Source of the DNA: Luzula sylvatica
Lineage: Eukaryota > Streptophyta > Magnoliopsida > Poales > Juncaceae
Assembly (NCBI GenBank): GCA_946800325.1
Contig: OX326959.1
Coordinates: 43,461,566 to 43,525,565 of the forward strand
Length of the DNA stretch: 64,000 nt
Direction of reading: 5' to 3'
Of the stretch, positions 14,261-62,252 are shown piece by piece. Made by a program: the position numbers and the translations under genes. The stretch's first letter is position 1; each line of letters starts with the position of its first letter. The notes beneath the pieces are model-generated. The model made no database searches and was not told the DNA's origin. It saw only the letters and a list, made by a program, of their open reading frames with translations.

Positions 14261-14459
14261 ACCCACGACAATTAAACAAATACAAACAATCCAAATAAGC
14301 AACGACAAACCACAAATACAACAATCCAGAAAATGAAACCACAATCCACAAATACAACAATCCGAATACGACAATCCACAAATAATACAACAATCCAAAT
14401 ACAACAGTCAAATAAACTCTCTCTAATTCTGATTCAAATTATCACCATCGAAACCTCCA

Positions 14460-39043: not shown

Positions 39044-40781
39044 ATGGCGAGAGACCAGCTTCAAGTTCTTAACGCTCTAGATGTTGCGAAAACTCAACTG
39101 TACCATTTCACAGCAATAGTGATAGCCGGTATGGGCTTCTTCACCGACGCGTACGATCTCTTCTGCATTTCCTTGGTCACCAAGTTATTGGGCCGCATTT
39201 ACTACTACAGACCAGGTTCACCCGATCCTGGTTCGCTTCCCCCTAACATTGCCGCGGCCGTCAATGGCGTGGCCTTCTGCGGAACCCTCTCGGGCCAGCT
39301 GTTTTTCGGTTGGCTTGGAGATAAAATGGGCAGGAAAAAGGTTTACGGCATGACCCTTATGATGATGGTACGTTGATAAATATTCAAGCATTTTATATGA
39401 TTACGATTTTAATAAAATGATATATAGGTGATATGCTCCTTCGCCTCGGGGCTTTCCTTCGGTAACTCTCCAAATGGTGTCATGGCTACTCTTTGTTTCT
39501 TTCGATTTTGGCTCGGTTTCGGTATCGGAGGCGATTATCCTCTTTCGGCGACCATTATGTCCGAATACGCCAACAAAAAGACGAGAGGAGCCTTCATCGC
39601 AGCTGTTTTTGCCATGCAAGGTTTCGGCATCCTCACTGGTGGTGTCGTCACTCTCATCGTCTCTTCGGCTTTTCGTGCCCGCTATGACGTCCCTGCTTAC
39701 CAGGTAATAATTATCCATAACAAGCTAATGTACTTTATAGTTTATAATCTTATTTAATTAAAACTGATATTACCAGGATAATCCGGTGGCCTCGACCCCA
39801 CCTCAAGCCGATTATGTCTGGCGCATAATCCTCATGTTCGGTGCTATCCCGGCCCTAATGACATACTACTGGCGAATGAAAATGCCGGAGACAGCTCGAT
39901 ACACGGCTCTCGTTGCCAAAAACGCGAAACAAGCCGCCGCGGACATGTCGAAAGTCCTCCAAGTCGATATCATGGAAGAAACTGATAAAATCGAGGAGTA
40001 CACGCGGGACAAGGATTTCGGCCTCTTTTCCCGTGAATTTATGAAACGACACGGGCTCCATCTTCTCGGAACCACCACGTGTTGGTTCATCCTCGATATT
40101 GCGTTTTACAGTCAAAATCTTTTCCAGAAGGATATATTCAGCGCGATTAACTGGATCCCCAAAGCGCGTACGATGAATGCTATGGAAGAGATTTACCGTA
40201 TTTCCCGCGCCCAAACCCTAATCGCGCTTTGCGGTACCGTACCGGGATACTGGTTTACGGTCGCGTTGATCGATGTTATCGGGCGATTTGCTATACAATT
40301 TTTAGGGTTTTTCATGATGACGGTTTTCATGCTCGGTCTGGCCATTCCGTACCATCACTGGACGACTCCAGGAAATCATATTGGATTTGTCGTGATGTAT
40401 GCTTTCACGTTCTTTTTTGCGAATTTCGGGCCGAATAGTACGACTTTTATCGTACCGGCCGAGATTTTCCCTGCCAGACTCAGGTCGACTTGTCATGGTA
40501 TATCGGCTGCGTCTGGCAAAGCCGGTGCGATAATCGGTTCTTTTGGATTTTTATATGCGGCTCAGAATCAAAACAAGGCTTTGACCGATCATGGATATCC
40601 TGCCGGTATCGGAGTGAGAAATTCCCTTTTTGTCCTTGCTGGATGTAATTTGTTGGGGCTCGTGTTTACGTTTTTAGTGCCCGAGCCGAATGGAAAGTCT
40701 TTGGAGGAGTTATCAGGGGAAAACGAGGAAGAAGATATTGAAATGAGCGGTACTGATCATTCCCGTACCGTACCGGTTTGA
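39044..40781 (+). CDS. PHT1: High-affinity inorganic phosphate transporter, PHT1 family (copy b)
   Basis: Plasma-membrane H+/phosphate symporter. Three coding exons, 39044-39367, 39428-39703 and 39777-40781, joined by short GT-AG introns, encode 534 residues. It shows [20 protein letters not shown], the MFS loop [14 protein letters not shown], the PHT1 signature [13 protein letters not shown] (from residue 142), [20 protein letters not shown] and the acidic C-terminal [17 protein letters not shown]. No frame defects. Introns fall after residues 108 and 200, whereas copy a (2237-3897) lacks both and has one after residue 373. So this is not a simple recent duplicate of copy a, although both are plainly PHT1. 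The sequence beginning 10 bases after its stop is the left edge of the block later copied into the 51.8-kb transposon. Confidence 0.96.
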
Positions 40782-41348
40782 CAGGGGAACAAATGTATGT
40801 GGTTAGTGTTTTGTTGTGTCTAGTTATTGTTATGTATGCTATGTGTGGGCTATGCATGAGATGCTGGAGATGGAGAGCTTATAGTTCCAGCTACATAGTT
40901 TTCTTTTTTGTGTAAGTTATAAGTTTGTCAAATGTTAATGCCAGTTTCAGTCTTAGTGCAACATGCATTTTATATTGTGCTGTACACTTTCTTTTTTGTC
41001 TGAAAATCTTGATATATTGTATATGACATTTTAGATGGATCTGAAAATTGAAAATTGAAAATTGAAGTCTATATGAGTTAGTAAATCATCATGATGGATC
41101 TGAACATGGAAAATGGAAGTCTATATTAGTTAGTAAATCATTATGAGTGATATGAACATGGAAAATGGAAGTCTATATTAGTTAGTAAATCATTATGATG
41201 CATCTAAAAATTCAAAATTCAAAATTCAAATCTAAAATAGATAGCACAATAGAAGATACTATTTATAGGAGAATATAATTCAACGGTAAATTAAATTTGC
41301 AAATCCAACATTAATTAGCATGATTATCTTCTGGATCTTTGTCGCTCC

Positions 41349-41356
41349 TATAAATA
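41349..41356 (+). promoter_or_regulatory. TATA box of the mini-gene
   Basis: TATAAATA 67 bases before the ATG; the leader that follows is C/T-rich (agtttctctctatcg). Retained unchanged in the second copy at 55285-55292. Confidence 0.65.
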
Positions 41357-41423
41357 GGATTTGCTTTGTAAATAATTCCATAGAACAATTCAAATAGTTT
41401 CTCTCTATCGAATCTATATCAAG

Positions 41424-41933
41424 ATGCAAAGAAACACCAATTCCTCCTCCGGCAGTTCAAAGAGGAATTTGGACATTGACGAGTCGCTAAACTTATACAC
41501 TCACAGAGAAGCGCTGCAACAAGTAGAGGCGGAGAAGCACATTAACATCAGGAATGAAGGCCAAGACAGGTACATGCAGATAATCTCAGAGAAAGCTTAT
41601 GAAATGGCGGTTCAGGACATGTACAATGGACCGGCCAATTACCAGTACAATGGACCGGCCAATTACCAGTACAATGGACCGGCCAATTACCAGTCCAATG
41701 ACCAGCCCAATTACCAGTCCAATTACCAGTCCAATTACCAGTCCAATTACCAGTCGATGGGAAATCGAGTACTGCACGGCTCGTCGAATTATTCTTCTCC
41801 TCAAGACCAACAATTTTATGGAGGGAATCAACTCGATCCACGCCATGATCAAATGGAGGGAACATTTGGCACCTATTATTTCTCTTCCAATGACACCGCG
41901 CAGGGTTCATCAAATAAGCAGAGATCCAAATAA
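41424..41933 (+). CDS. Small protein with MYB-CC-like coiled coil and NYQ repeats (copy 1)
   Basis: A single-exon ORF of 169 residues with its own TATA box. Residues 27-62 (HREALQQVEAEKHINIRNEG, then QDRYMQIISEKAYEMA) align with the LHEQLE coiled-coil of MYB-CC (PHR1/APL/PHL) transcription factors. The shared pattern is KH-x-x-x-R-x-E-x-Q-x-x-YMQ-x-x-x-EKA. The MYB DNA-binding domain that precedes this segment in the family is absent, and no exon for it is visible upstream. Residues 67-110 are three YNGPANYQ repeats, SNDQPNYQ and three SNYQ repeats, a prion-like Tyr/Asn/Gln tail. If the coiled coil is real, it could dimerise with full MYB-CC regulators and act as a microprotein-type inhibitor; that role is inference. 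It lies 642 bp downstream of PHT1b on the same strand. An identical copy is at 55360-55869. Confidence 0.65.
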   Translation: MQRNTNSSSGSSKRNLDIDESLNLYTHREALQQVEAEKHINIRNEGQDRYMQIISEKAYEMAVQDMYNGPANYQYNGPANYQYNGPANYQSNDQPNYQSNYQSNYQSNYQSMGNRVLHGSSNYSSPQDQQFYGGNQLDPRHDQMEGTFGTYYFSSNDTAQGSSNKQRSK

Positions 41934-42784
41934 AACCATAACTGAGATAATACTTTGGGTGTTATTCGGAGAGTATCGTAAAATTATTTTTCATTTTAGT
42001 AAGACGTACTAGCCTATGATAGAATTACAATGTTATCTTCAAACAAAAATGTATCACAGTTATTATTTTTTTAATAGGAAAAATGTACTCCAATTAATTA
42101 ATTGTCATCATTTTTTTATAACTCATCTAACTCTAATTAAGCATAACATTAAATATTATATCAATTTATTCACAATGCATTAGATAATACAAAACATAAA
42201 ACAAATGAAACATATCATCTATGTACGCACCGCACATTTTATTTCACTATGTCATCATGACAATAGGTGCCAAAACACAATTAAAATTATGGGGTAAAAA
42301 ATTTGCACATTCCTAATATATCATATGGATACGTAGTGGATTTTGTGTTTCCTACAAAATATTTTTTATTATCATCATAATCTCGGGTTTAGGCATATTT
42401 TTATACACTACGTAGTGGATTTTTATACACTATGACTATCGGTCATAAACGACTGACTAATCATCCCTATAATCTCCTAGTTTTGTTGAATTTTAAGAAA
42501 GGGTTTCAGCACTAATCATCCCTATAATTATAAATATTCACCCCTATCTCGGGTTTACAGAATATTTCGTTAGCTCATCAGTTTTTTCTATTTAAATGTA
42601 TGCTGTACCCTATAAAAGAAGAAATTGAGGAGAGTTTAGAACACATATTCAAAAGAAAGATCCGTTTCAGAGAGCGAGAAAATAGTAAGTTTGGATGTGT
42701 TTGTGGTTTCGAGTCTCATAAATACACAAATCAAATGAAACCAAACAACTAATCAAAAATCAATGAATTAAAATATATATCATA
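41934..42784. other. Region between the mini-gene and the FBD fragment
   Basis: AT-rich, no gene. Two near repeats, tacgtagtggattttgtg and tacgtagtggatttttat (42330, 42408), and catccctataat occurring twice. The same sequence is in the captured copy. Confidence 0.4.
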
Positions 42785-43528
42785 CTACATGAATTGTTGA
42801 TCCAACAATACATCTTCACCTCCAATCATTGCATATTCGAGATTCAGAATCGTACCAGCCCTATATTTCTTCTCATGGTAACGATACTCGTACCATGGAT
42901 TTATCATACAATCACGATCCAACGGTCCACATAGAACGATACGCGCATCTTTAGATGCCTTTTCAAGAACCATTAATTTACCTTGAACAATTCTCAGAAA
43001 CAATTCATCCGTTGACACGCAGTAACCTTCTTTCCAGACGAGAATGAGAGATTCTAAAACAGGAGTCTTTTCTAGCAAAAATTTTTTTTTTTGAGAAAAA
43101 TAGAGTAGGCTCTTATGTCCTACTTCTATTATTTGGATTAAAATAAAAGTTTTTTACAAGATTAAGCAAGTTTTTTTTGAAGGTATTTGCCCTACACTAG
43201 CTAAAAAACACTAAATCCTAAATACCTTCATACTAAACTTGCTAAATATCCATTAAACAAAGAAATCAAAACCTTAATCCTGAAATAACTGCCAGGATTT
43301 CAATTCCTTCATATATGGAAACTAAGAAACTTAGAATTCCAATTCTGGTTGAACTAAATCCGGAATCCAAAAACCAAATACCCTATCAATCAGAATTTAG
43401 AATCCGAGAATCAAAATTCTTCTCCTCTCTTTCCCGTGATGCATTCCAAATCCCGACTAACCACCATGAATCCTCCGTCACTAATTAGTTCTTCTTCGAT
43501 AATCTTCTTTTCCTCATTTGTCTTCATC

Positions 43529-43780
43529 GCCGCCATTACAGATCCTCATCTCCTTAGCTCATCGCCGCCATTACAGATCCTCATCTCATCGCCGCCATTA
43601 CAGATCCTCATCGCCGCCATTACAGATCCTCATCTCCTCAAATCAGAACGCCAATGAAACGAATTGAAGGGAGCTTGCCAGAGATCTAAGCGGAAAAGCC
43701 TTCATCTTGTTCTTCATCGCCAATGAAACGAATTGAAGGGAGCTTGTCAGAGATCTCCAATGAAACGAATTGAAGAAAGC
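43529..43780. repeat. Tandem repeats in the LINE 3' UTR
   Basis: Four units of 'cgccgccattacagatcctcat' (43529-43632) followed by three copies of 'caatgaaacgaattgaagg' (43650-43775). Internal to the LINE; possibly specific to this lineage. Confidence 0.75.
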
Positions 43781-43820
43781 CTTCATCGTGGTTCAACTTC
43801 ATCCCAGCGGTATTTACTCT

Positions 43821-46800
43821 TTATCTCACAAATTCTCTTACAGTGTCGTAAATTCTCAGAAAGGTTGAGTCTTCCACTTGTTCTTCATCAATTAGTTCAT
43901 CTTCTTCCAGTAAAGCGTTTGCTTGGTTGCTCGTGTGATTTCCGGTCGATTGAAACCACCAAATCCTTCTGTCCTCCACTTGAGTTGCTTCCTCATCTCG
44001 AATCTCTTCATCTACTTGTGTATCTACATCAGAAATAAATAGATTATTGTGTAGGCTTCCATCTGATAATAGGTCAATTGGTAAATTAAAAGCTAGATTA
44101 TCTGATAGATTTACATCTGGTACCCAATTTTTAAAATCAGAAAACTTTAGATCTTCAAAATTTTCAACTTGATTCAATTTGAACTCATATAATATATGAT
44201 TTACGATTGTCCAATCATCAAATTTCACATTTGTAAAAGTTCGTCGACACCTTTCTAACCAGAACTGGTACAATGAAATGCTTATCAGTATCTTATAATC
44301 CTTATTTTCCCTAGAATTAACCAATATATCTAAAGGTGTAAAAGAGTTTAACTTAGTAATATTTAATATTCCATGTAATTTATCCCATATTGTATTAATG
44401 AATGTGCACTGATGTGTAAAGTGTTCTATATTTTCTTCAGATTGCTGACAAAGGACACATCTATTAACCATGTACCAGCCCCTTTTCTTCAAATTGTCGA
44501 TAGTAAGTAATTTATTTTTGTAAATTAACCATAAAAATATTTTAATTTTCAGAGAAATATTAATTTTCCAAATATTTTCATAATATGCTTTAATATAAAC
44601 TCCTTTAATTATGAACTGGTATGTGCTTTTACAGGTAAAATGATTATTTCCATTCCATTGCCAGTTAAAAGCATCCTTTTGGGAGGGATTGAGATCAAGA
44701 GAAGAACAAATTTGATCAAGCTCTAGCAATTGGCCATGAGCTATGTTAGATAAAGGTACTACTATCCCCAAAGTATTATATAGATTAGATTCATTTATTT
44801 TATTAATAAAATAAGTAACTGTACCATTTTTATTTTCACAAAAAGAATATAATTCTTTAAATTTTTCACATAAAGGTTGTTCATTCCATTTCCCTTTCCA
44901 AAAACTAGATTTTTGACCATTTCCAATGATAATATTTAAACTGTGATTAAAGAAATCCAAATTTTTAAGTATATCATTCCAAAAATAAGAATAATTTTTT
45001 TTATTTAAATTATCACTTCCTAATTCATATATATTTCCAATAAGATTTTTCCATCCTAATCTTTCATCTGAGTTGTAGTACAACCAAAGCCATTTAATTA
45101 ATAATATTTTATTAAATAATTCTAAATTTAGAACCCCTAATCCACCTTTACTCTTAGGTTGACAAACTATATCCCACTCAATTAGGTTATATCCAGAGTT
45201 CTCATTACCTTTCCAAAAGAACTTTCTCCTTATTTTATCTATTTCATTAAAAACCCATTTTGGAAATCTGAATACATTGAAATAATAAATAGGTATTGAA
45301 GATAAAACTGAATTCATTAAAATTAATCTACCACTTTTACTTAGCATATTTCCTTTCCAACCCTCTAACTTTCCTGTAATTTTTTCAATGATTTTTAGAT
45401 AATCCTCTTTTGATGGTTTTTTAAAGTGCAATGGTAAACCCAAATAAGTTAAAGGAAATTTTCCAATTGGACAATTAAGTATTTTAGATATTTCAATTAT
45501 GTGTTCATTTTCAATATTTAATCCAATAATTTCTGATTTTTGATAATTCATTTTCAAACCAGATTCTTCTCCAAATAAATTTAAAATATATTGAACTCTA
45601 TAAATATTATTAATATTAGGGTTTAAAAATAAGATAGAATCATCGGCATAAAAAAGGCTAGTATAAATATTTTCAAATGGTTTTAATATGTAACCTTTAG
45701 CACTTAGATTTTCTAATAATTTAGATAAGACATCCATAACTAAAAGGAATAAATAAGTGGATAATGGATCACCTTGTCTCAAACCCCTTTTTAAATGAAT
45801 GAATTTACCGGGATTCCCATTTAAAATAACCCTAGCAGAACCTTTTAAAACTGAATTTTTAATCCATTTAATATAATTGTCACCAAAACCTCTGGATTTT
45901 AATATTTTTAATAAAAAATCCCATGACACGGTATCAAAGGCTTTATGAATGTCTAATTTTAAAATTATCAGAGGTGTTTTATGTCTTTTTGCTAAACAAA
46001 TTACCTCTCTAGCATACACGTAATTTTCAGATATATTTCTATTTTTTAAGAATCCTGTTTGATTTAGAGATATCATATTTTCTATATAATTAATCAGCCT
46101 ATTTGCAAGGACCTTAGAAAAAATTCTTTGTATACTAGAGATTAAACTAATTGGCCTAAAGTCTTTTGGTTCAATAGAATTTTCTTTTTTAGCAATTAAT
46201 GTGATATATGAAGTGTTAAAATTTGATAGACCTTGAAATCCTTCTAAATTAAATAAATTAAATATTTCAACTTTCAAAATAGTCCAGTATTTTTTAAAAA
46301 ATTCACTAATATACCCATCAGGGCCAGGACTTTTGTTTGATTTCCAGTTTTTTATTACCATATCTAGCTCTGTCATTTCAAAATTACTCTCCAGTGAAGT
46401 TAAATTGATATTGTCATTTTCATATAATTTATCTAAATTAATTTTACCATAATTATTATTATTAATAACTTCTTTTCCAATTAGGTCCCTATAAAATGAA
46501 AATATAAGTTTAGCTTTACTTACATGATCTTTAACTTCAATACCATTATTATCTTTCAAAATAGGAATCATATTACTTGTTTTCTTTATTGATGCATGTA
46601 AATGAAAAAATTTAGTATTAGCATCCCCATTTTTTAACCATTGAAATTTTGATCTTTGTTTCCAATATATTTTATTTAAATAGTTTATATTGTCATATCT
46701 TAATTTAGCTTTAAGTTTTAACCATTTTTCTATATTATTTAACTCTCTGATATCCTCCATATTGTCTACCCATTGAATTATTCTTTTACAGTTTTCTAAT

Positions 46801-47699
46801 TGTGTATTATATTTCTTATGCACATTTTTACTCCATTGTTTGAGAATTTTACTTAATTGTTGATATTTTCCAAAAAGATTTTCCATTGAAGTACTTTTAG
46901 TATTTTCCATGTAATTTTCTATAATTTCTGTCAATTCCTCCATATGTAACCATTTATGTTCAAACCTAAAACCATTAAAAACAGGATATTGACTATTAGC
47001 TTCATATAATATAGGAATATGATCCGAACATGTATTAATTCTAGTTGTTTGTTGTGAATTAGGAAAATCAAGCAACCATTTTTTATTCAAGAGTATTCTG
47101 TCAATTCGGGCTCTAGCAACAGAATTTTTCCAGGTATATTTTAATCCTTTTAATGGTAAATCAATTAGATTTAAATCATTAGATAATTCTCTAAATTCTT
47201 GTGTATATTGATGACTATTATATTGCCCACTTCTTTCATGTGTATAAAAAACTAAGTTAAAGTCACCTAATATCATCCATGATAAATTATTATTTTCACC
47301 TATTTGTTTTATTTCATTAAGAAAATCTTGTTTATCATTTCTATTAGTTGGTCCATATACACCAGTAATTAATATATTTTTAGCGTCCCATAAAGTTTGT
47401 AGTACTATAGAAATAGAATATTTATATTTTTGTGAAGATATTAATTTAAATAATTTTTTATTCCAAGATAAAATTATTCCTCCAGATGCACCTTGAGATT
47501 TTAAGTAGTCAAATCCAGTTAAATTTTTACCACAAACTTCTTTAATTATTTGATTATTTACTATACTCAACTTTGTTTCTTGTAAACAACAAATATCAAT
47601 ATGTTCATCCATTATATTTTTACATACTAAGTGTTTTTTATTATTATCATTTAGCCCTCTAACATTCCATGAAAAAATTCTAAGTTTTTTATATATCAT
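43821..47699 (-). CDS. LINE ORF2: endonuclease and reverse transcriptase
   Basis: 1292 residues in one open frame. The N-terminal apurinic-type endonuclease has FSWNVRGLNDNN (residue 8 on), CLQETKL, GPTNRN, WMILGDFNLVF (about 141) and SDHIPIL (about 225). The reverse transcriptase has DFRPISLISSIQRIFSKVLA (about 515), ILKLDIHKAFDTVSWDFL (about 580), GLRQGDPLSTYLFLL and the catalytic FYADDSI (about 681). A C-terminal zinc-binding RVT domain follows (CVLCQQSEENIEHFTHQC, about 1081), and then a Glu/Asp-rich tail. No RNase H domain is apparent. It makes cDNA by target-primed reverse transcription. All catalytic residues I can check are present. Confidence 0.95.
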   Translation of the reverse strand: MIYKKLRIFSWNVRGLNDNNKKHLVCKNIMDEHIDICCLQETKLSIVNNQIIKEVCGKNLTGFDYLKSQGASGGIILSWNKKLFKLISSQKYKYSISIVLQTLWDAKNILITGVYGPTNRNDKQDFLNEIKQIGENNNLSWMILGDFNLVFYTHERSGQYNSHQYTQEFRELSNDLNLIDLPLKGLKYTWKNSVARARIDRILLNKKWLLDFPNSQQTTRINTCSDHIPILYEANSQYPVFNGFRFEHKWLHMEELTEIIENYMENTKSTSMENLFGKYQQLSKILKQWSKNVHKKYNTQLENCKRIIQWVDNMEDIRELNNIEKWLKLKAKLRYDNINYLNKIYWKQRSKFQWLKNGDANTKFFHLHASIKKTSNMIPILKDNNGIEVKDHVSKAKLIFSFYRDLIGKEVINNNNYGKINLDKLYENDNINLTSLESNFEMTELDMVIKNWKSNKSPGPDGYISEFFKKYWTILKVEIFNLFNLEGFQGLSNFNTSYITLIAKKENSIEPKDFRPISLISSIQRIFSKVLANRLINYIENMISLNQTGFLKNRNISENYVYAREVICLAKRHKTPLIILKLDIHKAFDTVSWDFLLKILKSRGFGDNYIKWIKNSVLKGSARVILNGNPGKFIHLKRGLRQGDPLSTYLFLLVMDVLSKLLENLSAKGYILKPFENIYTSLFYADDSILFLNPNINNIYRVQYILNLFGEESGLKMNYQKSEIIGLNIENEHIIEISKILNCPIGKFPLTYLGLPLHFKKPSKEDYLKIIEKITGKLEGWKGNMLSKSGRLILMNSVLSSIPIYYFNVFRFPKWVFNEIDKIRRKFFWKGNENSGYNLIEWDIVCQPKSKGGLGVLNLELFNKILLIKWLWLYYNSDERLGWKNLIGNIYELGSDNLNKKNYSYFWNDILKNLDFFNHSLNIIIGNGQKSSFWKGKWNEQPLCEKFKELYSFCENKNGTVTYFINKINESNLYNTLGIVVPLSNIAHGQLLELDQICSSLDLNPSQKDAFNWQWNGNNHFTCKSTYQFIIKGVYIKAYYENIWKINISLKIKIFLWLIYKNKLLTIDNLKKRGWYMVNRCVLCQQSEENIEHFTHQCTFINTIWDKLHGILNITKLNSFTPLDILVNSRENKDYKILISISLYQFWLERCRRTFTNVKFDDWTIVNHILYEFKLNQVENFEDLKFSDFKNWVPDVNLSDNLAFNLPIDLLSDGSLHNNLFISDVDTQVDEEIRDEEATQVEDRRIWWFQSTGNHTSNQANALLEEDELIDEEQVEDSTFLRIYDTVREFVR

Positions 47700-47745
47700 T
47701 TAACATAATTAAATTCCTTAAAATAACTTTTCAAACTGTAATTAA

Positions 47746-49587
47746 TTAACTATCAGTAGCATCTAACATGCTAATAATTTTATCATTTAAATTAGGATTT
47801 ATTTCTATTCCTGTTGAAGATAAAATTTCAATAATTTCCTCTGGGTTTGTGAATTTAGTTTTTTCTTCTAAGTTTAAAAGTTTTATATCATTATCATTTT
47901 TCTTTGATTTTTGTCTTCTATTTCGCTCTTTTTGAATTTCTTTATATTTAACTAATTGAGCCTTGTGAATAGGAGAAGTATAATTGCCAGATTGTTTGTT
48001 TAACAATCTTGTACTTCTTCGTTGTTCATCATTTTGAAGAGTTTTAGCAATTTCCTTACTTTTTTGGTCAGATGTAATTAGAGATTTATTAGGTTTTAGA
48101 ATAGAAACATTCTTAACTGCCTTTTCCTGATTTATATGATATGCATCCAAATCAATATGAGAAAAATAATCATTTATTTTCTTTTGCTTAAATTTTTCAG
48201 GAGAGGATTGAAGAGGATGATCAATTGTATCTTCAAAATCTACTAATGGAGTCATATTTGTAATGGTATTATCAGTTCTTTCTAAAGAAGAATTTATTTG
48301 AGAATTATCATTACTTAAATTTAGGTTTCCAATTGTACCCTTACTAGGAGAAAAATATTCTGGTTCAACTAAACTAGGAGTGTTCTCAATAACAGGTATG
48401 TGTTCATATTTATTCTGTTTTATTAGATTGTCTTTAAATTGTGAAATTATTTTTAATCCCTGCTTTGTAATTTGTATTTTAAGTGTTGATTTTACTTTAT
48501 TTGTCGAATTTTTTATTATTTTCATACCATTATGCTTTGTTAACTCTACAAAAATTTCCTTATATAAAGGGACTTTAATAACTTTCTTAAAATTAGAAGA
48601 TTCTATTATAAAAATATCATGATTATTTTTGAGTTTCGAAATTACAAGATTTCCTGTATTTTTATTAACTTCATGATGTTGATCATTAATTAAAGGTATA
48701 ATATTTTCCCCTACTTTTTTCTTAATTCTCCAAATTTGTGTTATTTTCTTCTTTTTTTGCCAAATTTTCCTTATGTTTTGTTTCTGATGCATTTTCTTTT
48801 TATTATTATTATCAATATTACTATTAAAATTTATATTATTATTAGAAATTTCCTTTTGTGTATTTTGACTTTTAATTATACTCTCTTGAGAAACATTATG
48901 TGAAGTGCTTGATAAATCCTTATTTTCTATAACCAATATTTTATAGTTTTTTTCACCATCTATTATGTGAATTGATTTTGGAATTATAGAATTAGGTTTA
49001 GTATTTATAGAAAGAGAGATTTCACTTATGATTTCAGTTGGAAAATATGAACCTACTCCAATTAAATAACCCATAGTCTTAATAATTTTAGATATATCAA
49101 ATGGATTGCAATATTTAATTGGTAGATTTTTAAGAGAAATTGACTTGGTTGTATAATTTTGGTTTTCAGAATAGTTAAAAACATTATTCATATACACTGT
49201 TATTTCATTTGCATTAGGTGAAATAATTAATTCTTTAGGATTTATTTGCTCTGCATTAACTTGATTTTTATAGTTATTATGTCCAGGACCTTTTGAAATA
49301 TTAAAATTTGAACTAGTCTCTTGAGTCTTATTATTAATATTTGGTATGAAATTCCTTTGAATTTTTGAAAGATTTGTGAAGCAATTTTTTTGAATATGAC
49401 CCAATTTGAAACATCTTAGACATCTAATAGGCTCTCTACACTGAAACCTGAAATGATTTGTAGCTAGACATCTAAAACACTTTTGAATTTGATTTTTAGG
49501 CACATTTCTAGGTTTTTTTGAAATAATATTCCAGGAATTTTCATTTCCTAGGTTATTTTGCAATATCTGTTTATATGAGTAATTCAT
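47746..49587 (-). CDS. LINE ORF1: zinc-knuckle nucleic-acid-binding protein
   Basis: 613 residues, open. Two CCHC knuckles near the N terminus: Cys37-Cys40-His45-Cys50 (CFRCLATNHFRFQC) and Cys56-Cys59-His64-Cys69 (CLRCFKLGHIQKNC). The rest is Lys/Asn/Ile-rich with basic patches (QKQNIRKIWQKKKK, RNRRQKSKKNDND) and probably binds LINE RNA. Its first exon-like region is matched, with stops, in the degenerate copy at 58.6-60.4 kb. The start is the ATG followed by NYSYKQILQ, conserved in both copies. Confidence 0.88.
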   Translation of the reverse strand: MNYSYKQILQNNLGNENSWNIISKKPRNVPKNQIQKCFRCLATNHFRFQCREPIRCLRCFKLGHIQKNCFTNLSKIQRNFIPNINNKTQETSSNFNISKGPGHNNYKNQVNAEQINPKELIISPNANEITVYMNNVFNYSENQNYTTKSISLKNLPIKYCNPFDISKIIKTMGYLIGVGSYFPTEIISEISLSINTKPNSIIPKSIHIIDGEKNYKILVIENKDLSSTSHNVSQESIIKSQNTQKEISNNNINFNSNIDNNNKKKMHQKQNIRKIWQKKKKITQIWRIKKKVGENIIPLINDQHHEVNKNTGNLVISKLKNNHDIFIIESSNFKKVIKVPLYKEIFVELTKHNGMKIIKNSTNKVKSTLKIQITKQGLKIISQFKDNLIKQNKYEHIPVIENTPSLVEPEYFSPSKGTIGNLNLSNDNSQINSSLERTDNTITNMTPLVDFEDTIDHPLQSSPEKFKQKKINDYFSHIDLDAYHINQEKAVKNVSILKPNKSLITSDQKSKEIAKTLQNDEQRRSTRLLNKQSGNYTSPIHKAQLVKYKEIQKERNRRQKSKKNDNDIKLLNLEEKTKFTNPEEIIEILSSTGIEINPNLNDKIISMLDATDS

Positions 49588-49804
49588 AATTCTAATAGAG
49601 AGATAGAAAACTTAGCAGGAATGGAGATCTAGGCACTGGAATCCTTGCACTGGTTAAGAGTCTTCACTGGAGAGGTATCACTGGAGAGGAGTCTTCCCGG
49701 GAGACTGGAAGAAGCTTTACTAGGGACTGAAGGGAATGAACAGGAACACTACCACTCTTCGCTTCTTAGCCTCACTACATTCTGGTACCCAATATCCACC
49801 TTGT

Positions 49805-49995
49805 CTGAGTTGAGTGTTTTGGCAGGACTGTTCTTGGCAATGGAATTCTTGGCAATGGTGATGAAGTCTTGGCAATGGTCTTGGCAGGACTGTTTTTGGC
49901 AATGAAATTCTTGGCAAATCTGGTTTGTGTTTGTATTTGGAGTGATTGTGTATTTGGTTTTTGGTTTGTATTGGTAATGGAGGTCTTAGCAATGG
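49805..49995. repeat. Repeats in the LINE 5' UTR
   Basis: 'ttggcaatg' and 'tcttggca' words recur about ten times in tandem-like order. Internal promoter-like repeats are usual in LINE 5' regions. The decayed copy at 58 kb lacks most of them. Confidence 0.6.
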
Positions 49996-50832
49996 TGATC
50001 TTGATATCCTGTATCACTTAATTAAATTTTGCTCAAGATCCCTCCATTTGTGGCTTTTGCAAATTTTGTATAATTGGACTTAACCAAAAAAACAATCTTT
50101 TCCACTCTTTGATGTTGGTTGAACCGCCTGAATAGTGGAGTAACAGTGCAAATAAACGTTATTTACTTTTTAACTCACTGAAGCTAGAGAAAAAGGGTAG
50201 TCGCGATAATCTTCTAGCAAAAATTTGATCAATTTGAGCTCGATAAACGACCCTTCAAATTTGAAATTTGGATGCATTTAAGATTTGCGAACGCTATATC
50301 GGGCATATCCTTTTCCGTAGTGATTGCATCGGTTATATCTATTGGTGAATTCATATTTCCTGGAAGCTGCCAAATTAACAAAATTATATAAAACTAATTT
50401 CGAACAAGTTGTTAAAGAACAGAAAATACTCACCGAAATGAAAAGTTTCTCGAGTAATGGAGAAGGGCAGAAATGGAAAAAAGAGACAATGCAAAAGAGA
50501 TGCTCTTCACTTAACGCATCGTTGAGTTTCAACACATCACCGAAAACATGAGAAAAAGATATGCCATAATATAAGAACGATTCGAGTTTAGGCGCGAATA
50601 TTTCCATCTCATATACACCTCTACAATCCACCATTACCAACTTTTTAAGGTTTAATTTATCTCCTAAAAATTTAACAACCTCAAGAGACCCACATCTTTT
50701 CAGATAAATATTTTCTAGGGAAACACAGGTTTGCAATATATTTGTTAGCATTTCATTGTACACGTTTACTTGATCGAGAGACAGGGAATGCATCCCGACA
50801 AAATCGGCGAAATTAAATGTGTAGGGAAAATC

Positions 50833-51819: not shown

Positions 51820-52467
51820 GACAAGTATAGGGATGTCAATGGGTCGGGTAAAACCCGAACCAGCGGGTACCCGATCCGAACGGGGCGGGTAATATCCAAA
51901 AAAAAGACCCGCGGGTCGGGTATATATTACCCGAAAAAAAATATCCGCTCCGGGTTCGGGTTCAGGTACGGGAGTAAATTTGTACCCGCTGGTATACCCA
52001 AACCCGCATGAGAGAATTATGATAAAAAAAATGTATGTGGTTAGTGTTTTGTCGTGTCTAGTTATTGTTATGTATGCTCTGTGTGATTATGCATGAGAGA
52101 ATTATAATAAACAACCCGCACACAACACGCATGAATATAGATGGAAAGTAATTAGTGAATTATTAATGATGAAATTCATTACATTAGGCAAATTAGTGTC
52201 AAATATATTGATGCGGGTAGAATGGGGGTTTTGAAGTGCGTGGTGCCTAATATTATTGATGCATAACATGCTGGAGAGCTTAGTTCCAGCTACAAAGTTT
52301 TTTTTTTTGTAAGTTCTAAGTTTGTCAAATGATAATGCCAGTTTCAGTCTTAGTGCAACATGCATTTTATATTTTGCTGTACACTTTCTTTTTTGTTTGA
52401 AAATCTTGATATCTTGTAAATGATATTTTAGATGGATCTGAAAATTGAAAATTGAAGTCTATATATG

Positions 52468-54937
52468 CAGGCCCGGTCCTAGATTTTCGGAGACCTTGGA
52501 CGAATTTTAAGACGGGGCTTTTGAAATATAGAACGGTTTTTTTTCTTTCAAATTCGAACCGAACAATTGGATTTTTGGTAAACTTATATAATAAAATTGC
52601 TAAATTAATACAAGTTACGTTAACATTATATTTCTCAATTTCAATTAGTATCAAGGAAATTTTCCTGTAGTAACCGAGTTTCGAAAAAATATTCGTGAAA
52701 TAACCAAGTTTTGAACATAATTACCAAAATGTCTTTTGCGGGGTACCATTCAGCGTTTTTTTGCACAGGCGGGGAATGATTCAGCGCTTTTGTTTATGGA
52801 AGTAATTAAGCCAATTAAATAAAGGCGCTGAATGAAACAGCGCCAGGCGCTAAACCATTCAGCGCCTTTATATATAAAATTTCAAACGCACAGCTCATTT
52901 AAAAAAAAATTTATTCCACTCCAAGATGTACCCGCCGAATTCTCCATTATTTATTTATTACGTTCAATTATATTGATAATTAAGATATACAATTAAATAT
53001 TCAGTAAAATTTATTCAAATTTATGAATTTGAGTGAATATTAATTATGTATTAAATTAACAGCTAATATGTAATGGTTATTATTTTAATTAAATATACGA
53101 ATCGAAATTATCCAAATTTTATCGTAACATTTCTATGTCCTAATTAGTATATTTAATTAAAATGATAAACGGTACATGTTAGTTGTTAACTTAATACATA
53201 ATTAATCATTATTCGAATTCATAAATTTGAATAAATTTTACTGAATATTTAATTATATATCTTAATTATCAATATAATTGAACGTAATAACTAAATAATG
53301 GAGAATTCGGCAGGTATATTTTGGAGTGAAATAATTTTTTTATATTTTTTTTCAAAGCCGTGTGTCAGTGTCTTATTTTAAAAAAAAAGAAAAAATTAAA
53401 CTCCTACAAAGTGTACCTGCCGAATTCTCCATTATTTATTACGTTCAATTATATTGATAATTAAGATATATAATTAAATATTCAATAAAATTTATTCAAA
53501 TTTATGAATTCGAATGATTATTAATTATGTATTAAGTTAACAACTAACATGTACCGGTTATCATTTTAATTAAATATACTAATTATAACATAGAAATGTT
53601 ATGATAAAATTTGGATAATTTCGATTCGTATATTTAATTAAAATGATAACCGGCACATGTTAGTTGTTAACTTAATACATAATTAATAATTATTCGAATT
53701 CATAAATTTGGATAAATTTTACTGAATATTTAATTATATACCTTAATTATCAATATAATAGAACGTAATAACTAAATAATGGAGAATTCGACGTGTACAG
53801 TTTGGAGGGGTTTAACTTTTTATATTTTTTTCAACATTTTCACGTGGTGTGTGTCAGATATTAAAGTAAAAAAATTAAACCACTCCCAATTGTACATGCC
53901 GAAATTTTCATTATTTAGTTATTACGTTCAATTATATTGATAATTAAGGTATATAATTAAATATTCAGTAAAATTTATCCAAATTTATGAATTCGAATAA
54001 TTATTAATTATGTATTAAGTTAACAACTAACATGTGCCGGTTATCATTTTAATTAAATATACGAATCGAAATTATCCAAATTTTATCATAACATTTCTAT
54101 GTTATAATTAGTATATTTAATTAAAATAATAACCATTACATATTAGCTGTTAATTTAATACATAATTAATATTCATTCAAATTCATAAATTTGAATAAAT
54201 TTTACTGAATATTTAATTGTATATCTTAATTATCAATATAATTGAACGTAATAAATAAATAATGGAGAATTCGGCGGGTACATCTTGGAGTGGAATAATT
54301 TTTTTTTAAAATGATCTGTGCGTTTGAAAATTTATATATAAAGGCGCTGAATGGTTTAGCGCCTGGCGCTGTTTCATTCAGCGCCTTTATTTAATTGGCT
54401 TAATTACTTCCATAAACAAAAGCGCTGAATCATTCCCCGCCTGTGCAAAAAAGCGCTGAATGGTACCCCGCAAAAGACATTTTGGTAATTATGTTCAAAA
54501 CTTGGTTATTTCGCGAATATTTTTTCGAAACTCGGTTACTACAGGAAAATTTCCTAGTATCAATGGAACACTTATTTCAGAAATTAAACAATAAATCAAT
54601 GTCAATTGATCACTAATCAAGCAAAAAAAATTATAGTTTTCGAATAGACATCAACAATTTATCGTGATTTGTAGCACCAATTTTCAAATTATAACCAATT
54701 AATTATTATCAATTAAACATCCCTTTTAAAATTTCTCGAAGTTTGCACCAGTTAAACGAAAAATAAGAATGATACTCAAAATTTAAATTTAAATCATGCA
54801 AAACAATATTGTTCAAATAAATATTCATCATGTGTGTATATATACATAAGATTAAAATATCTTAGGACTTAGGAGACTTTTATTTTTTGGGGGCTTTAGG
54901 CCTTTGCCTAATTTGTCCAAGGCCAAGACCGGGCCTG
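52468..54937. mobile_element. hAT element inserted in the captured block
   Basis: Ends CAGGCCCGGTC and GACCGGGCCTG, with perfect octamer TATATATG on both sides (52460-52467, 54938-54945). The donor block at about 41070 (tctatatgagttag) shows the empty site. Left and right subterminals share ggaccttggac and the inverse gtccaaggcc. No transposase; most of it is the nested palindrome. Confidence 0.88.
52665..54544. mobile_element. 1.9-kb hierarchical palindrome, Mutator-like foldback
   Basis: The whole element is an inverted repeat beginning CTGTAGTAACCGAGTTTCG. The outer arms (52665-52925 and 54285-54544) contain four or five gcgctgaat/attcagcgc motifs. Inside are three tandem units of about 370 bp (about 52936-53306, 53419-53793, 53900-54277). 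Each is its own palindrome, starting gaattctccattattta and ending in its complement. The spacers are also mutually inverted. Flanks GAAATTTTC and GAAAATTTC agree at 8 of 9, suggesting a 9-bp duplication. No coding. Confidence 0.8.
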
Positions 54938-55284
54938 TATATATGAGTTAGTTAATCATCATGATGGATCTGAACATGGAAAATGAAAGTCTATATGAGT
55001 TAGTAAATCATTATGAGGGATATGAAATATGAACATGGAAAATGGAAGTCTATATTAGTTAGTAAATCATTATGAGGGATATGAAATATGAACATGGAAA
55101 ATGGAAGTCTATATTAGTTAGTAAATCATTATGATGCATCTAAAAATTCAAAATTCAGAATTCAAATCTAAAATAGCCAGCACAATAGAAGATACTATTT
55201 ATAGGAGAATATAATTCAACGGTAAATTAAATTTGCAAATCCAACATTAATTAGCATGATTATCTTCTGGATCTTTGTCGCTCC

Positions 55285-55292
55285 TATAAATA
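55285..55292 (+). promoter_or_regulatory. TATA box of the captured mini-gene
   Basis: TATAAATA, unchanged from copy 1, 67 bases before the ATG. Sequence further upstream than about 350 bases is replaced by the hAT element. Confidence 0.6.
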
Positions 55293-55359
55293 GGATTTGC
55301 TTTGTAAATAATTCCATAGAACAATTCAAATAGTTTCTCTCTATCGAATCTATATCAAG

Positions 55360-55869
55360 ATGCAAAGAAACACCAATTCCTCCTCCGGCAGTTCAAAGAG
55401 GAATTTGGACATTGACGAGTCGCTAAACTTATACACTCACAGAGAAGCGCTGCAACAAGTAGAGGCGGAGAAGCACATTAACATCAGGAATGAAGGCCAA
55501 GACAGGTACATGCAGATAATCTCAGAGAAAGCTTATGAAATGGCGGTTCAGGACATGTACAATGGACCGGCCAATTACCAGTACAATGGACCGGCCAATT
55601 ACCAGTACAATGGACCGGCCAATTACCAGTCCAATGACCAGCCCAATTACCAGTCCAATTACCAGTCCAATTACCAGTCCAATTACCAGTCGATGGGAAA
55701 TCGAGTACTGCACGGCTCGTCGAATTATTCTTCTCCTCAAGACCAACAATTTTATGGAGGGAATCAACTCGATCCACGCCATGATCAAATGGAGGGAACA
55801 TTTGGCACCTATTATTTCTCTTCCAATGACACCGCGCAGGGTTCATCAAATAAGCAGAGATCCAAATAA
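55360..55869 (+). CDS. Small protein with MYB-CC-like coiled coil and NYQ repeats (captured copy)
   Basis: Same 169-residue protein as at 41424-41933. The translations of both strands are identical, so the ORF shows no nucleotide change. It keeps about 420 bp of the original upstream DNA including the TATA box, and its own 3' flank, so it could be expressed from within the transposon. Identity, while the flanks carry several substitutions and insertions, suggests recent capture or selection on the ORF; over 510 bp these cannot be told apart by eye. Confidence 0.65.
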   Translation: MQRNTNSSSGSSKRNLDIDESLNLYTHREALQQVEAEKHINIRNEGQDRYMQIISEKAYEMAVQDMYNGPANYQYNGPANYQYNGPANYQSNDQPNYQSNYQSNYQSNYQSMGNRVLHGSSNYSSPQDQQFYGGNQLDPRHDQMEGTFGTYYFSSNDTAQGSSNKQRSK

Positions 55870-56720
55870 AACCATAACTGAGATAATACTTTGGGTGTTA
55901 TTCGGAGAGTATCGTAAAATTATTTTTCATTTTAGTAAGACGTACTAGCCTATGATAGAATTACAATGTTATCTTCAAACAAAAATGTATCACAGTTATT
56001 ATTTTTTTAATAGGAAAAATGTACTCCAATTAATTAATTGTCATCATTTTTTTATAACTCATCTAACTCTAATTAAGCATAACATTAAATATTATATCAA
56101 TTTATTCACAATGCATTAGATAATACAAAACATAAAACAAATGAAACATATCATCTATGTACGCACCGCACATTTTATTTCACTATGTCATCATGACAAT
56201 AGGTGCCAAAACACAATTAAAATTATGGGGTAAAAAATTTGCACATTCCTAATATATCATATGGATACGTAGTGGATTTTGTGTTTCCTACAAAATATTT
56301 TTTATTATCATCATAATCTCGGGTTTAGGCATATTTTTATACACTACGTAGTGGATTTTTATACACTATGACTATCGGTCATAAACGACTGACTAATCAT
56401 CCCTATAATCTCCTAGTTTTGTTGAATTTTAAGAAAGGGTTTCAGCACTAATCATCCCTATAATTATAAATATTCACCCCTATCTCGGGTTTACAGAATA
56501 TTTCGTTAGCTCATCAGTTTTTTCTATTTAAATGTATGCTGTACCCTATAAAAGAAGAAATTGAGGAGAGTTTAGAACACATATTCAAAAGAAAGATCCG
56601 TTTCAGAGAGCGAGAAAATAGTAAGTTTGGATGTGTTTGTGGTTTCGAGTCTCATAAATACACAAATCAAATGAAACCAAACAACTAATCAAAAATCAAT
56701 GAATTAAAATATATATCATA

Positions 56721-57157
56721 CTACATGAATTGTTGATCCAACAATACATCTTCACCTCCAATCGTTGCATATTCGAGATTCAGAATCGTACCAGCCCTAT
56801 ATTTCTTCTCATGGTAACGATATTCGTACCATGGATTTATCATACAATCACGATCCAACGGTCCACATAGAACGATACGCGCATCTTTAGATGCCTTTTC
56901 AAGAACCATTAATTTACCTTGAACAATTCTCAGAAACAATTCATCCGTTGACACGCAGTAACCTTCTTTCCCGACGAGAATGAGAGATTCTAAAACAGGA
57001 GTCTTTTCTAGCAAAAATTTGATCAATTTGAGCTCGATAAACGACCCTTCAAAATTTGAAATTTGGATGCATTTAAGATTTTCGAACGCTATATCGGGTA
57101 TATCCTTTTCCGTAGTGATTGCATCGGTTATATCTATTGGTGAATTCATATTTCCTG
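56721..57157 (-). pseudogene. Captured FBD exon fragment
   Basis: Encodes NMNSPIDITDAITTEKDIPD, FENLKCIQISNFEGSFIELK, LIKFLLEKTPVLESLIL and on to LLDQQFM, the FBD domain in an unbroken frame. This is the version without the LINE and without the one-base deletion seen in copy 1. It begins a few bases inside exon B and then runs into transposon sequence, so there is no LRR or F-box part and no promoter. A read-through frame adds a few transposon-encoded residues upstream (to 57218). Confidence 0.8.
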
Positions 57158-57531
57158 CGGGTTCGGGTTTATAATGTATTTTGTACAAGATATCCGAAAA
57201 ATATCCGAAAATACTCAATAATATGAAAATTTGTGGTATTTTATGGATTAATTATTTGTAATATTTACATTTATAATGTATTTTGTATAAGATGTTTGTT
57301 TTATATATACAAAATTATTGGTGATTTTTAATTTTTTTTATAGATTGTGTATTGGTGATTTTCGGCTAACGGGTTTGGGTACACCCGTTACCCGCGGATT
57401 CGGGTTCGGATATGATTTTTTACCCGCGGGTATTTTGGATTCGGGTTCGGATAATACCCGAAAATTCGGATTCGGATATGGAGGAGAATTACCCGAACCC
57501 GACCCGCCCCGTTGACATCCCTAGACAAGTA

Positions 57532-58137: not shown

Positions 58138-58611
58138 ACCACCGAGCCTTCTCTATTTACTCGTTTTTTGGCGATTCAAGAATTCAAGAAACCAAAGAAA
58201 ACCTAATCATCTCTTCAACTGGAGAGTGATCTCCTCAGGCGGTTCATACACAGAGATACATTCAACAAACACAGTCCAAGTTATTTACATACGAGAGGAT
58301 CAAATGGAGGGATCCTAAACTTCAACTCAAAGAACCAAAACACTCAACTCATCTTACCAATTCTCTGTTCAAGCCAAAACTCGAAATTACTGTCCATCTT
58401 CCATGACAAGGTGGATAATGGGTACCAGAATGTAGTGAGGCTAAGAAGCAAAGAGTGGTAGTGTTTCTGTTCATCATCCTCAGCATATCCCTTCAGTCCC
58501 TAGTAAAGCTTCTTCCAGTCTCCCGGGAAGCTTCCTCTCCAGTGAAGATTCTTCTCCAGTGCAAGGATCTTGCCTAGCTCTCCATTCCTTTTTCTATCTC
58601 TCTATTAGAAT

Positions 58612-60408
58612 TATGAATTACTCATATAAACAGATATTGCAAAATAACCTAGAAAATGAAAATTCCTGGAATATTATTTCAAAAAAACCTAGAAATGTGC
58701 CTAAAAATCAAATTCAAAAGTGTTTTAGATGTATAGCTACAAATCATTTAAGGTTTGAGTGTAGAGAGCCTATTAGATGTCTAAGATGTTTTAAATTGGG
58801 TCATATTCAAAAAAATTGTTACACAAATCTTTCAAAAATTCAAAGGAATTTCATGCCAAATATTAATAATAAGACTCAAGAGACTAGTTCAAATTTTAAT
58901 ATATCAAAAGGTTCTGGAAATAATAACTAATAAAATCAAGTTAATGAAAATGAAATAACAGTGTATATGAATAATGTTTTTAACTATTCTGAAAACCAAA
59001 ATTATACAACCAAGTCAATTTCTCTTAAAAATCTACCAATTAAATATTGTAATCCATTTGATATATCTAAAATTATTAAGACTATGGGTTATTTAATTGG
59101 AGTAGGTTCATATTTTCCAACTGAAATCATAAGTGAAATCTCTCTTTCTATAAATATTAAACCTAATTCTATAATTCCAAAATCAATTAAAATAATAGAT
59201 GGTGAAAAAAACTATAAAATATTGGTTATAGAAAATAAGGATTTATCAAGCACTTCACATAATGTTTCTCAAGAGAGTATAATTAAAAGCCAAAATACAC
59301 AAAAGGGAATTTCTAATAATAATATAAATATTGATAGTAATATTGATAGTAATAATAAAAAGTATCAGAAACAAAAAATAGGGAAAATTTGGCAAAAAAA
59401 AGAAGAAAATAACTCAAATTTGGAGAATTAAGAAAAAAGTGGGGGAAAAAACTATACCTTTAGTTAATGATCAACATCATGAAGTTAATAAAAATACTGG
59501 AAATCTTGTAATTTCGAAACTAAAAAATAATCATGATATTTTTATAATAGAATTTTCTAATTTTAAGAAAGTTATTAAAGTCCCTTTATATAAGGAAATT
59601 TTTGTAGAATTAACAAAGCATAATGGTATGAAAATAATAAAAAAAAATCAACAAATAAAGAAAATTCAACACTTAAAATACAAATTACAAAGCAGGGATT
59701 AAAAATAATTTCAAAATTTAAGGACAATCTAATAAAACAGAATAAATATGAACACATACATGTTATTGAGAACACTCCTAGTTTAATTGAACCATAATCT
59801 TTTTCTCCTAGTAAGGGTAAAATTGGAAACCTAAATTTAAGTAATGATAATTCTCAAATAAATTCTTATTTAGAAAGAAATGATAATACCATTACAAATA
59901 TAACTCCATTAGTAGATTTTGAAGATACAATTGATCATCCACTTCAATCCTCTCCTAAAAAATTTAAACAAAAGAAAATAAATGATTATTTTTCTCATAT
60001 TGATTTGGATACATATAATAAAAATCAGGAAAAGGCAATTAAGAATGTTTCAATTCTAAAAGCTAATAAATCTCTAATTACATCTGAACAAAAAAGTAAA
60101 GAAATTGCTAAAACTCTTCAAAATGATGAACAAAGAAGAAGTACAAGATTGTTAAACAAACAATCTGGTAATTACACTTCTCCTATTCAAAAGGCTCAAT
60201 TAGTTAAATACAAAGAAATTCAAAAAGAGAGAATAGAAGACAAAAATCAAAGAAAAATGATAATGATATAAAACTTTTAAACTTAGAAGAAAAAACTAAA
60301 TTAACAAACCCAGAGGAAATTATTGAAATTTTATCTTCAATAGGAATAGAAATAAATCCTAATTTAAATGATAAAATTATTAGCATGTTAGATGCTACTG
60401 ATAGTTAA
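58612..60408 (+). pseudogene. LINE ORF1 relic
   Basis: Starts NYSYKQILQNN and keeps both CCHC knuckles (CFRCIATNHLRFEC, CLRCFKLGHIQKNC). It has a stop at 58928-58930, a deletion before NENEITVYMNN, frameshifts near 59430 and 59640, and a stop near 59797. Ends at the same TAA as the intact copy. Confidence 0.85.
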
Positions 60409-60454
60409 TTAATTACAGTTTGGAAAGTTATTTTAAGGAATTTAATTATGTTAA

Positions 60455-62252
60455 ATGATATATAAAAAATTTATAATTTTTTCATGGAATGTTAGAGGGC
60501 AAAATGATAATAATAAAAAACACTTAGTTTGTAAAAATATAATGGATGAACATATTGATGTTTGTTGTTTACAAGAAACAAAGTTGAGTATAGTAAATAA
60601 TCAAATAATTAAAGAAGTTTGTGGTAAAAATTTAACTGGATTTGACTACTTAGAATCTCAAGGTGCATCTGGAGGAATAATTTTATCTTGGAATAAAACA
60701 TTATTTAAATTAATATCTTCACAAAAATATAAATATTCTATTTCTATAGTATTACAAACTTTATGGGATGCTAAAAATATATTAATTACTGGTGTATATG
60801 GACCAACTAATAGAAATGAAAAACAAGATTTTCTTAATGAAATAAAACAAATAGGTGAAAATAATAATTTATCATGGATGATATTAGGTGACTTTAACTT
60901 AGTTTTTTATACACATGAAAGAAGTGGACAATATAATAGTCATCAATATACACAAGAATTTAGAGAATTATCTAATGATTTAAATCTAATTGGTTTACAA
61001 TTAAAGGGATTAAAATATACCAGGAAAAATTCTATTGCTAGAGCTAGAATTGACATATTTCTCTTGAATAAAAAATGGTTGCTTGATTTTGCTAATTCAC
61101 AACAAACTTCTAGAATTAATACATGTTCAGATCATATTCCTATATTATATGAAGCTAATAGTCAATATCCTTTTTTTAATGGTTTTAGGTTTGAACATAA
61201 ATGGTTACATATGGAGGAATTAACATAAATTATAGAAAATTACATGGAAAATAATAAAAGTACTTCAATGGAAAATCTTTTTTGGAAAATATCAACAATT
61301 AAGTAAAATTCTTAAACAATGGAGTAAAAATGTGCATAAGAAATATAATATACAATTAGAAAACTGTAAAAGAATAATTCAATGGGTAGACAATATTGAG
61401 GATATCAGAGAGTTAAATAATATAGAAAAATGGTTAAAACTTAAAGCTAAATTAAGATATGAAAATATAAATTATTTAAATAAAATATATTGAAAACAAA
61501 GATCAAAATTTCAATGGTTAAAAAATGGTGATGCTAATACTAAATTTTTTCATTTACATGCATCAATAAAGAAAACAAGTAACATGATTCCTATTTTGAA
61601 AGATAACAATGGTATTCAAGTTAAAGATCATGCAAGTAAAGCTAAACTTATATTTTCATTTTATAGGGACCTAACTGGAAAAGAAATTATTAATAATAAT
61701 AATTATGGTAAAATTAATTTAGATAAATTATATGAAAATGAAAATATCAATTTAACTTCACTAGAGAGTAATTTTGAAATGACAGAGCTAGATATGATAA
61801 TAAAAATCTGGAAATCAAACAAAAGTCCTGGCCCTGATGAGTATATTAGTGAATTTTCTAAAAAATACTGGACTATTTTGAAAGGTGAAATATTAAATTT
61901 ATTTAATTCAGAAGGATTTCAAGGTCTATCAAATTTTAACACTTCATATATCACATTAATTGCTAAAAAAGAAAATTCTATTGAACCAAAAGACTTTAGG
62001 CCAATTAGTTTAATCTCTAGTATACAAAGAATTTTTTCTAAGGTCCTTGCAAATAGGCTAATTAATTATTTAGGAAATATGATATCTATAAATCAAACAG
62101 GATTCTTAAAAAATAGAAATATATCTGAAAATTATGTGTATGCTAGAGAGGTAATTTGTTTAGCAAAAAGACATAAAACACCTCTGATAATTTTAAATTA
62201 GACATTCATAAAGCCTTTGATACTGTGTCAAGGGATTTTTAATTAAAAATAT
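60455..62252 (+). pseudogene. LINE ORF2 relic, cut in the reverse transcriptase
   Basis: Endonuclease part is well preserved (FSWNVRGQNDNN, WMILGDFNLVF, SDHIPIL). Stops occur at 61226-61228, 61490-61492 (Trp to stop) and 62199-62201, with a one-base insertion near 61277. The catalytic YADD region and everything after it is missing. Confidence 0.85.

Follow-up and report, generated by a model that had tools for sequence, protein, structure and literature searches.

Probable capture of a complete small gene by a hAT-type transposon in Luzula sylvatica through gap repair from an adjacent template

This study concerns a 64,000-nucleotide stretch of Luzula sylvatica DNA (hereafter the window; GenBank assembly GCA_946800325.1, contig OX326959.1, positions 43,461,566 to 43,525,565, forward strand), in which a PHT1-like phosphate transporter gene (39086-40550) is followed by a small gene and by a minus-strand gene with an FBD domain. 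Downstream of this region lies a hAT-type element of 5,696 bp (51828-57523), which holds a second copy of the host DNA between its arms. How cut-and-paste transposons acquire genes is still argued, the competing views being fusion of elements and copying during repair (PMC8903248, PMC8277862). The features of the source and of the element are as follows, with all positions numbered from the first base of the window.

40788-43084, plus strand: source block part 1, with the PHT1 3' flank, the small gene, and the 3' part of the FBD gene
41424-41933, plus strand: open reading frame (ORF) of the small gene in the source, 169 amino acids plus stop
43085-50211, minus strand: long interspersed nuclear element (LINE), in the source only, with a 15-bp target-site duplication (TSD), TTCTAGCAAAAATTT, at 43070-43084 and 50212-50226
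50227-50362, plus strand: source block part 2, from the minus-strand FBD gene; 50363 onward is missing from the copy
51820-51827, no strand: left TSD of the element, GACAAGTA
51828-52005, plus strand: hAT left arm, CCCG/CGGG-rich, with terminal inverted repeat (TIR) TAGGGATGTCAA; its right limit is placed by the filler
52006-52026, plus strand: templated filler, a 20/21 copy of 52091-52111 (junction of the source with a miniature inverted-repeat transposable element, MITE)
52027-52098, plus strand: captured PHT1 3' flank, a copy of about 40788-40861 (92% over 74 BLAST columns)
52099-52260, plus strand: MITE of 162 bp with flanks GCATGAGA and GCATAACA, matching at 6 of 8 positions
52269-52467, plus strand: captured source 40862 to about 41070, upstream of the small gene; the end is ambiguous (tandem-repeat region)
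52468-54937, no strand: nested hAT-type element of 2,470 bp with ends CAGGCCCGGTC and TSD TATATATG at 52460-52467 and 54938-54945
54946-57157, plus strand: remaining captured source, to 43084 and then 50227-50362
55285-55294, plus strand: TATA box TATAAATAGG, 75 bp upstream of the ATG (source position 41349)
55360-55869, plus strand: captured complete ORF, 169 amino acids plus stop, identical to the source ORF
56721-57157, minus strand: captured part of the FBD gene, LINE-free and cut by the hAT right arm; FBD domain at 24.5 bits (cut-off 22)
57158-57523, plus strand: hAT right arm, with TIR TTGACATCCCTA
57524-57531, no strand: right TSD of the element, GACAAGTA

The element is bounded by a perfect 8-bp TSD, and the four occurrences of GACAAGTA on the plus strand of the window include both of its copies. 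TAGGGATGTCAA and its reverse complement are each found once in the window, exactly at the two ends of the element, which gives perfect 12-bp inverted ends; over the terminal bases, the two ends agree at 20 of 22 positions. The 8-bp TSD and short TIR by which hAT elements are recognized are thus both present, as proposed in a preliminary description of this DNA. Both arms are enriched in ACCCG/CGGGT, with 13 occurrences in 199 bp on the left and 13 in 366 bp on the right vs 2.2 per kb in the window. A scan for perfect 8-bp repeats next to inverted ends matching at 10 or more of 12 positions, at a spacing of 120-9,000 bp and excluding 8-mers that were of low complexity or occurred more than 20 times, returned 18 pairs in the window (6 of them at 12/12, and several inside palindromic or tandem repeats), and 1, 0, 1, 5, and 3 pairs in five block-shuffled controls. 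Two other scan pairs, 12023-17495 and 26940-27936, have ACCCG/CGGGT-rich ends as well. No transposase domain was found in the 10 of the element's 21 ORFs of at least 55 amino acids that were given to Pfam (the remaining 11 were not run), and one of those 10 had two unrelated matches below the cut-off. The 5' ends of maize Ac/Ds are given as C/TAGGGATGAAA (PMC3260210), and among titles and abstract openings found with the letters of the 12-bp TIR there was no hAT-family paper.

Comparison of the window with itself shows that the interior of the element matches 40788-43084 and 50212-50362, collinearly and in direct orientation. The captured block corresponds to source 40788-43084 plus 50227-50362, and to 52027-57157 of the copy less the MITE and the nested hAT; the first source base is ambiguous (40788-40791), so that the captured host DNA amounts to 2,430-2,433 bp of source. 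It runs from just past the PHT1 stop codon (7-10 bases beyond it), through the complete 169-codon ORF with its TATA box, into the minus-strand FBD gene, in agreement with the host block that the preliminary description had outlined. Its account of the element as copied host DNA holds for these 2.43 kb, and not for the approximately 2.6 kb of the 5.7 kb that belong to other transposons, namely, the MITE at 52099-52260 and the nested hAT at 52468-54937. The source borders at its left on the PHT1 frame, which ends at 40781, and at its right an LRR-type reading frame (50278-50832) continues across 50362. Since the source thus continues into native genes on both sides, the direction of copying was from source to copy, as had been stated earlier. 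The distance of 11 kb then given for the source is an offset that includes the younger LINE of 7.1 kb; the present gap from the source end at 50362 to the element start at 51828 is 1,465 bp. An identifiable parental locus free of the element is present, as for Pack-TYPE elements and Pack-hATs, and it lies in cis within the 15 kb used for gap-filling Pack-TIRs. When 2 kb to the left of both copies and, to the right, 2 kb (copy) vs 1.45 kb (source) were compared, only weak matches were found past the block edges (left, 15 bp at best, E 0.49; right, 14 bp and 59 bp at 69%, each E 0.029). Within the window, the duplication ends at the hAT arms, and the larger tandem duplication past 51820 or 57531 that would have contradicted capture was not seen.

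At the left junction, the arm stops near 52005 and not at about 200 bp as first described, and is followed by the 21-bp filler. This consists of GCATGAGA, which is source sequence, and GAATTATGATAAA, which is the start of the MITE; its template lies 85 bp downstream, and no further match with up to 3 mismatches exists on either strand of the window. Such a filler has the appearance of a copying signature, pointing to repair synthesis with template switching. The MITE is found in the copy and is missing from the present source, and the simplest reading would be that the donor already carried it and that the filler marks a false start of copying. A relative of the MITE is located at 31888-32053, with flanks AGTAAGAG and AATAAGAG that match at 7 of 8 positions. 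Because this relative has similar ends and its own flank repeat, a reading of 52099-52271 as hAT-internal sequence, reached by a jump from source to hAT and back to source, was dropped. The relative lies in a 2.4-kb region enclosed by a long inverted repeat pair (31000-33391; 544 columns, 91%).

Insertions confined to one of the two copies give an order of events. The LINE of about 7.1 kb, with reverse transcriptase, endonuclease, and zf-RVT domains, is present in the source only. Its target sequence TTCTAGCAAAAATTT occurs three times in the window, once of these in the copy, where 57006-57020 is the exact empty site. The template was consequently an allele without the LINE, i.e., copying is older than the LINE or took place from a LINE-free allele. 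Near 50257, the source and copied FBD parts differ by 1 bp in length, which leaves the source frame broken and that of the copy open; together with the LINE, this makes the source FBD gene look dead. A second LINE copy (58405-62252), inverted relative to the first, is 96% identical to it over 3.3 kb and 90% over 0.57 kb, and is without its 3' part; LINEs usually lose the 5' part. The nested hAT is present in the copy only, and its interior (52901-54304) holds 2.9 tandem repeats of a 483-bp unit.

The best explanation, which we consider probable, is that gap repair with a template in cis gave rise to a single-copy 'Pack-hAT'. A non-autonomous hAT would have been inserted at GACAAGTA, approximately 1.5 kb downstream of the region with PHT1, the small gene, and FBD, and would then have suffered a break, probably leading to gap repair after excision on one chromatid or, alternatively, arising inside the element. 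Synthesis may have left the left arm near 52005 and switched to the adjacent host locus, made a false start of 21 nt at the junction of donor and MITE, and gone back 85 bp; about 2.4 kb would then have been copied in direct orientation and joined to the right arm at 57158. Later, the LINE would have entered the source and the second hAT the copy, while the composite itself would have stayed in place, and a core of 1.6 kb was perhaps homogenised by gene conversion. A left arm, a templated filler, a copy of nearby host DNA, and a right arm within a retained TSD fit an interrupted gap repair. Abortive gap repair in Ac/Ds reportedly yields internal deletions and short fillers (Rubin and Levy 1997), likewise with left arm, filler, and right arm in sequence and the TSD kept. 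Among animal elements, single-copy Pack-TIRs are attributed mostly to gap filling that is independent of transposition, and for 160 Pack-TIRs (56.9%) the parent is found within 15 kb, in most of these cases within 5 kb (PMC8277862).

Several points weigh against this explanation. The uncaptured, plain form of the hAT family was not found in the window, so that 52006-52026 may yet be part of the hAT itself, and the right junction offers no reference against which to gauge microhomology. Ends resembling its TIR, at up to 2 of 13 mismatches, do exist at 7954, 8477, 8557, 19034, and 22265, among others, and are perhaps decayed relatives of the element; no matching 8-bp repeat was found on pairing 7954 with 8477 or 8557, or 19034 with 22265. 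The filler could also stem from a second repair event after the capture. Lastly, the divergence between copy and source is higher on the left (9/165 columns) than on the right (5/393; Fisher test, 0.007), which a single one-time capture does not predict.

Divergence is indeed uneven along the whole block. Substitutions per column were 9/165 at source 40882-41048 (left), 6/157 in the 52/59-bp tandem repeat, where the alignment is ambiguous, 3/37 at 41206-41242, 0/1,585 at 41243-42827 (core), and 5/393 at 42828-43084 plus 50227-50362 (right). These counts leave out source 40788-40881, since the first patch is misplaced in the global alignment and an indel cluster lies at 40879-40881; for that part, the BLAST identity is given above. 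In Fisher tests, the core differs from the right (3.0e-4) and from the left (4.8e-10). The core was picked after inspection, so that it is fairer to permute the mismatch positions; this gave a run of 1,585 in 0 of 20,000 permutations for the alignment from 40882, and in 1 of 20,000 from 41206 on. The identical core reaches into noncoding DNA to the left and right of the ORF and can therefore not be put down to selection on the protein alone. The pattern implies later gene conversion, a source haplotype of mosaic origin, or an error of assembly, between which the evidence does not decide. For the core having escaped conversion altogether, the source chromosome being a mosaic of the donor and other haplotypes or the assembly having homogenised the copies, we see slightly less than an even chance. 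The states of the MITE and LINE and the 9/165 on the left suggest that the donor allele was not the same as that now in the source, and polishing can homogenise repeats in assemblies; the identical run of 1,585 columns is long, however, and, while it shows unevenness, does not tell a mosaic from conversion.

Repair in place has also to be weighed against movement of a finished element. The preliminary description had a transposon capture the gene, and a hAT with these ends did insert at GACAAGTA; the TSD is no proof, though, that it did so with the block already inside, and proximity and filler fit a capture in place. It is unlikely, in our view, that capture occurred elsewhere or at another nearby site and that the finished 3-kb element, before nesting, then hopped locally to GACAAGTA as a unit. 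With a perfect TSD and two perfect TIRs, the unit could have moved, and local insertions of one and the same hAT cluster are over-represented in maize (PMC8903248). The TSD is, however, equally expected if an empty hAT had inserted first, a template at a distance of 1.47 kb and with matching orientation is well suited to copying in cis, and neither a second composite copy nor a second copy of the arms is present in the window. Clearly less probable still is a macro-transposon, in which two hATs flanking the source mobilised it by their outer ends; this fusion model, put forward for Pack-CACTA, has been applied to further superfamilies, hAT among them (PMC8903248). Yet the source remains where it was, a filler would not be expected, only short arm-like matches surround the source (best E 0.082), and the element contains neither an inner TIR with up to 2 of 13 mismatches nor a further GACAAGTA, an absence that is weak evidence since the model permits deleted or mutated inner ends. 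An ordinary local segmental duplication, both ends of which were later struck by unrelated transposons, would account for a copy adjoining its source in the same orientation, but is hardly credible: a perfect TSD and the same TIR and kind of arm are found at both ends, and the copied sequence goes no further than the arms.

Gene capture by hAT elements is rare in the words of one paper (PMC3260210), but already known from maize and frog, so that the preliminary description overstated how unusual it is. Pack-hATs have been described in maize, and the Pack-TYPE study reports no new Pack-TE superfamily in Arabidopsis (PMC8903248). The Luzula element resembles the maize ones as a non-autonomous TIR element with an 8-bp TSD and host gene DNA inside, and differs from them in its adjoining source, in the extent of the captured piece, which takes in the whole small gene and part of a gene region on either side, and in its templated filler (PMC8903248). 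Maize Ds2 and Ds-like elements likewise have hAT arms enclosing filler DNA: gene fragments are reported in 2 Ds2 and 9 Ds-l4, the donors of Ds2-22 and Ds-l4-354 are on other chromosomes, and Ds2-18 is annotated as a complete gene (PMC3260210). Every copy of the Ds2-18 coding sequence in B73 is transposon-borne, unlike in Luzula, where an intact source gene is nearby (PMC3260210). The gene-carrying hAT-N8_XT of frog is multicopy (PMC8277862). With single-copy animal Pack-TIRs made by gap filling, the Luzula case shares a parent in cis, filler in a TIR element, and a capture thought to be independent of transposition, and it differs in being from a plant, in its complete ORF with TATA box, and in the apparent templated false start at its junction (PMC8277862). 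The examined passages of a 2026 review of plant gene capture do not contain the word hAT (PMC13317346). The present locus, which keeps donor, product, the apparent templated false start, and event-ordering later insertions within 17 kb, is a good single case for repair copying in a plant hAT, with a whole small gene and its TATA box duplicated together. The general picture of hAT gene capture is not changed by this locus alone; capture was known, and it is the record of its steps that is unusually readable.

In 500 first-order simulations of the 2,036-bp small-gene region, the longest ORF beginning with ATG was 140 amino acids (mean 68), compared with 169 here; internal 24-bp repeats in the region help to keep frames open. 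Pfam gives the ORF a weak match to MYB-CC LHEQLE (residues 32-60, E 1.5e-4, 21.9 bits, cut-off 29.1) and no MYB DNA-binding domain, and a search of the PDB placed the PHR1 coiled coil at E 0.72 and 0.75, after an unrelated chain at 0.47. No homologue of the ORF was found at E<=0.01 among 373 candidates, and none of residues 8-66 at E<=10 among 2 candidates, while a tblastn search of the window with a MYB-CC sequence had a single match (14757-14846, E 6.6). PHR coiled coils bind SPX proteins (PMC7810988). A role for the small gene in phosphate signalling beside PHT1 is a tempting idea suggested by this one weak motif. The captured ORF could in principle be expressed, since it is intact and the TATA box is kept. 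It seems very improbable that copy and source keep exchanging sequence, with the small gene held identical by repeated gene conversion because it functions, as a MYB-less MYB-CC coiled-coil protein near a phosphate transporter gene, in PHR/SPX signalling, and with hAT capture providing a second, potentially mobile copy of the regulator.

Elsewhere in the window, 2441-3858 and 39086-40550 are similar in DNA sequence (73-78% in five pieces) and lie inverted to each other, and the former is probably another phosphate transporter gene; in a search with PHT1, Rhynchospora, Typha, and Carex come first among the best 120 of 4,940 matches, which would place the plant among monocots close to the sedges, and not in Brassicaceae as first supposed. 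No tRNA genes were found in a scan with bacterial settings. One further hAT-like element and two candidates for such are also present. That at 12023-17495 has ends TAGGGGTGTACA and TAGGGGTGTACG, TSD CCGAACAT, a tandem repeat at 13116-14260, and CCCG-rich arms that can be aligned only weakly with those of 51828-57523. A third candidate hAT-like element, at 26940-27936 (997 bp), is CGGG-rich and has perfect 12-bp ends TAGTGTAGTGCC and TSD GTTAGATA, and a small candidate at 29594-30130 has ends CAGTGTTCCAGA and CAATGTTCCAGA and TSD CCTAGCGC.

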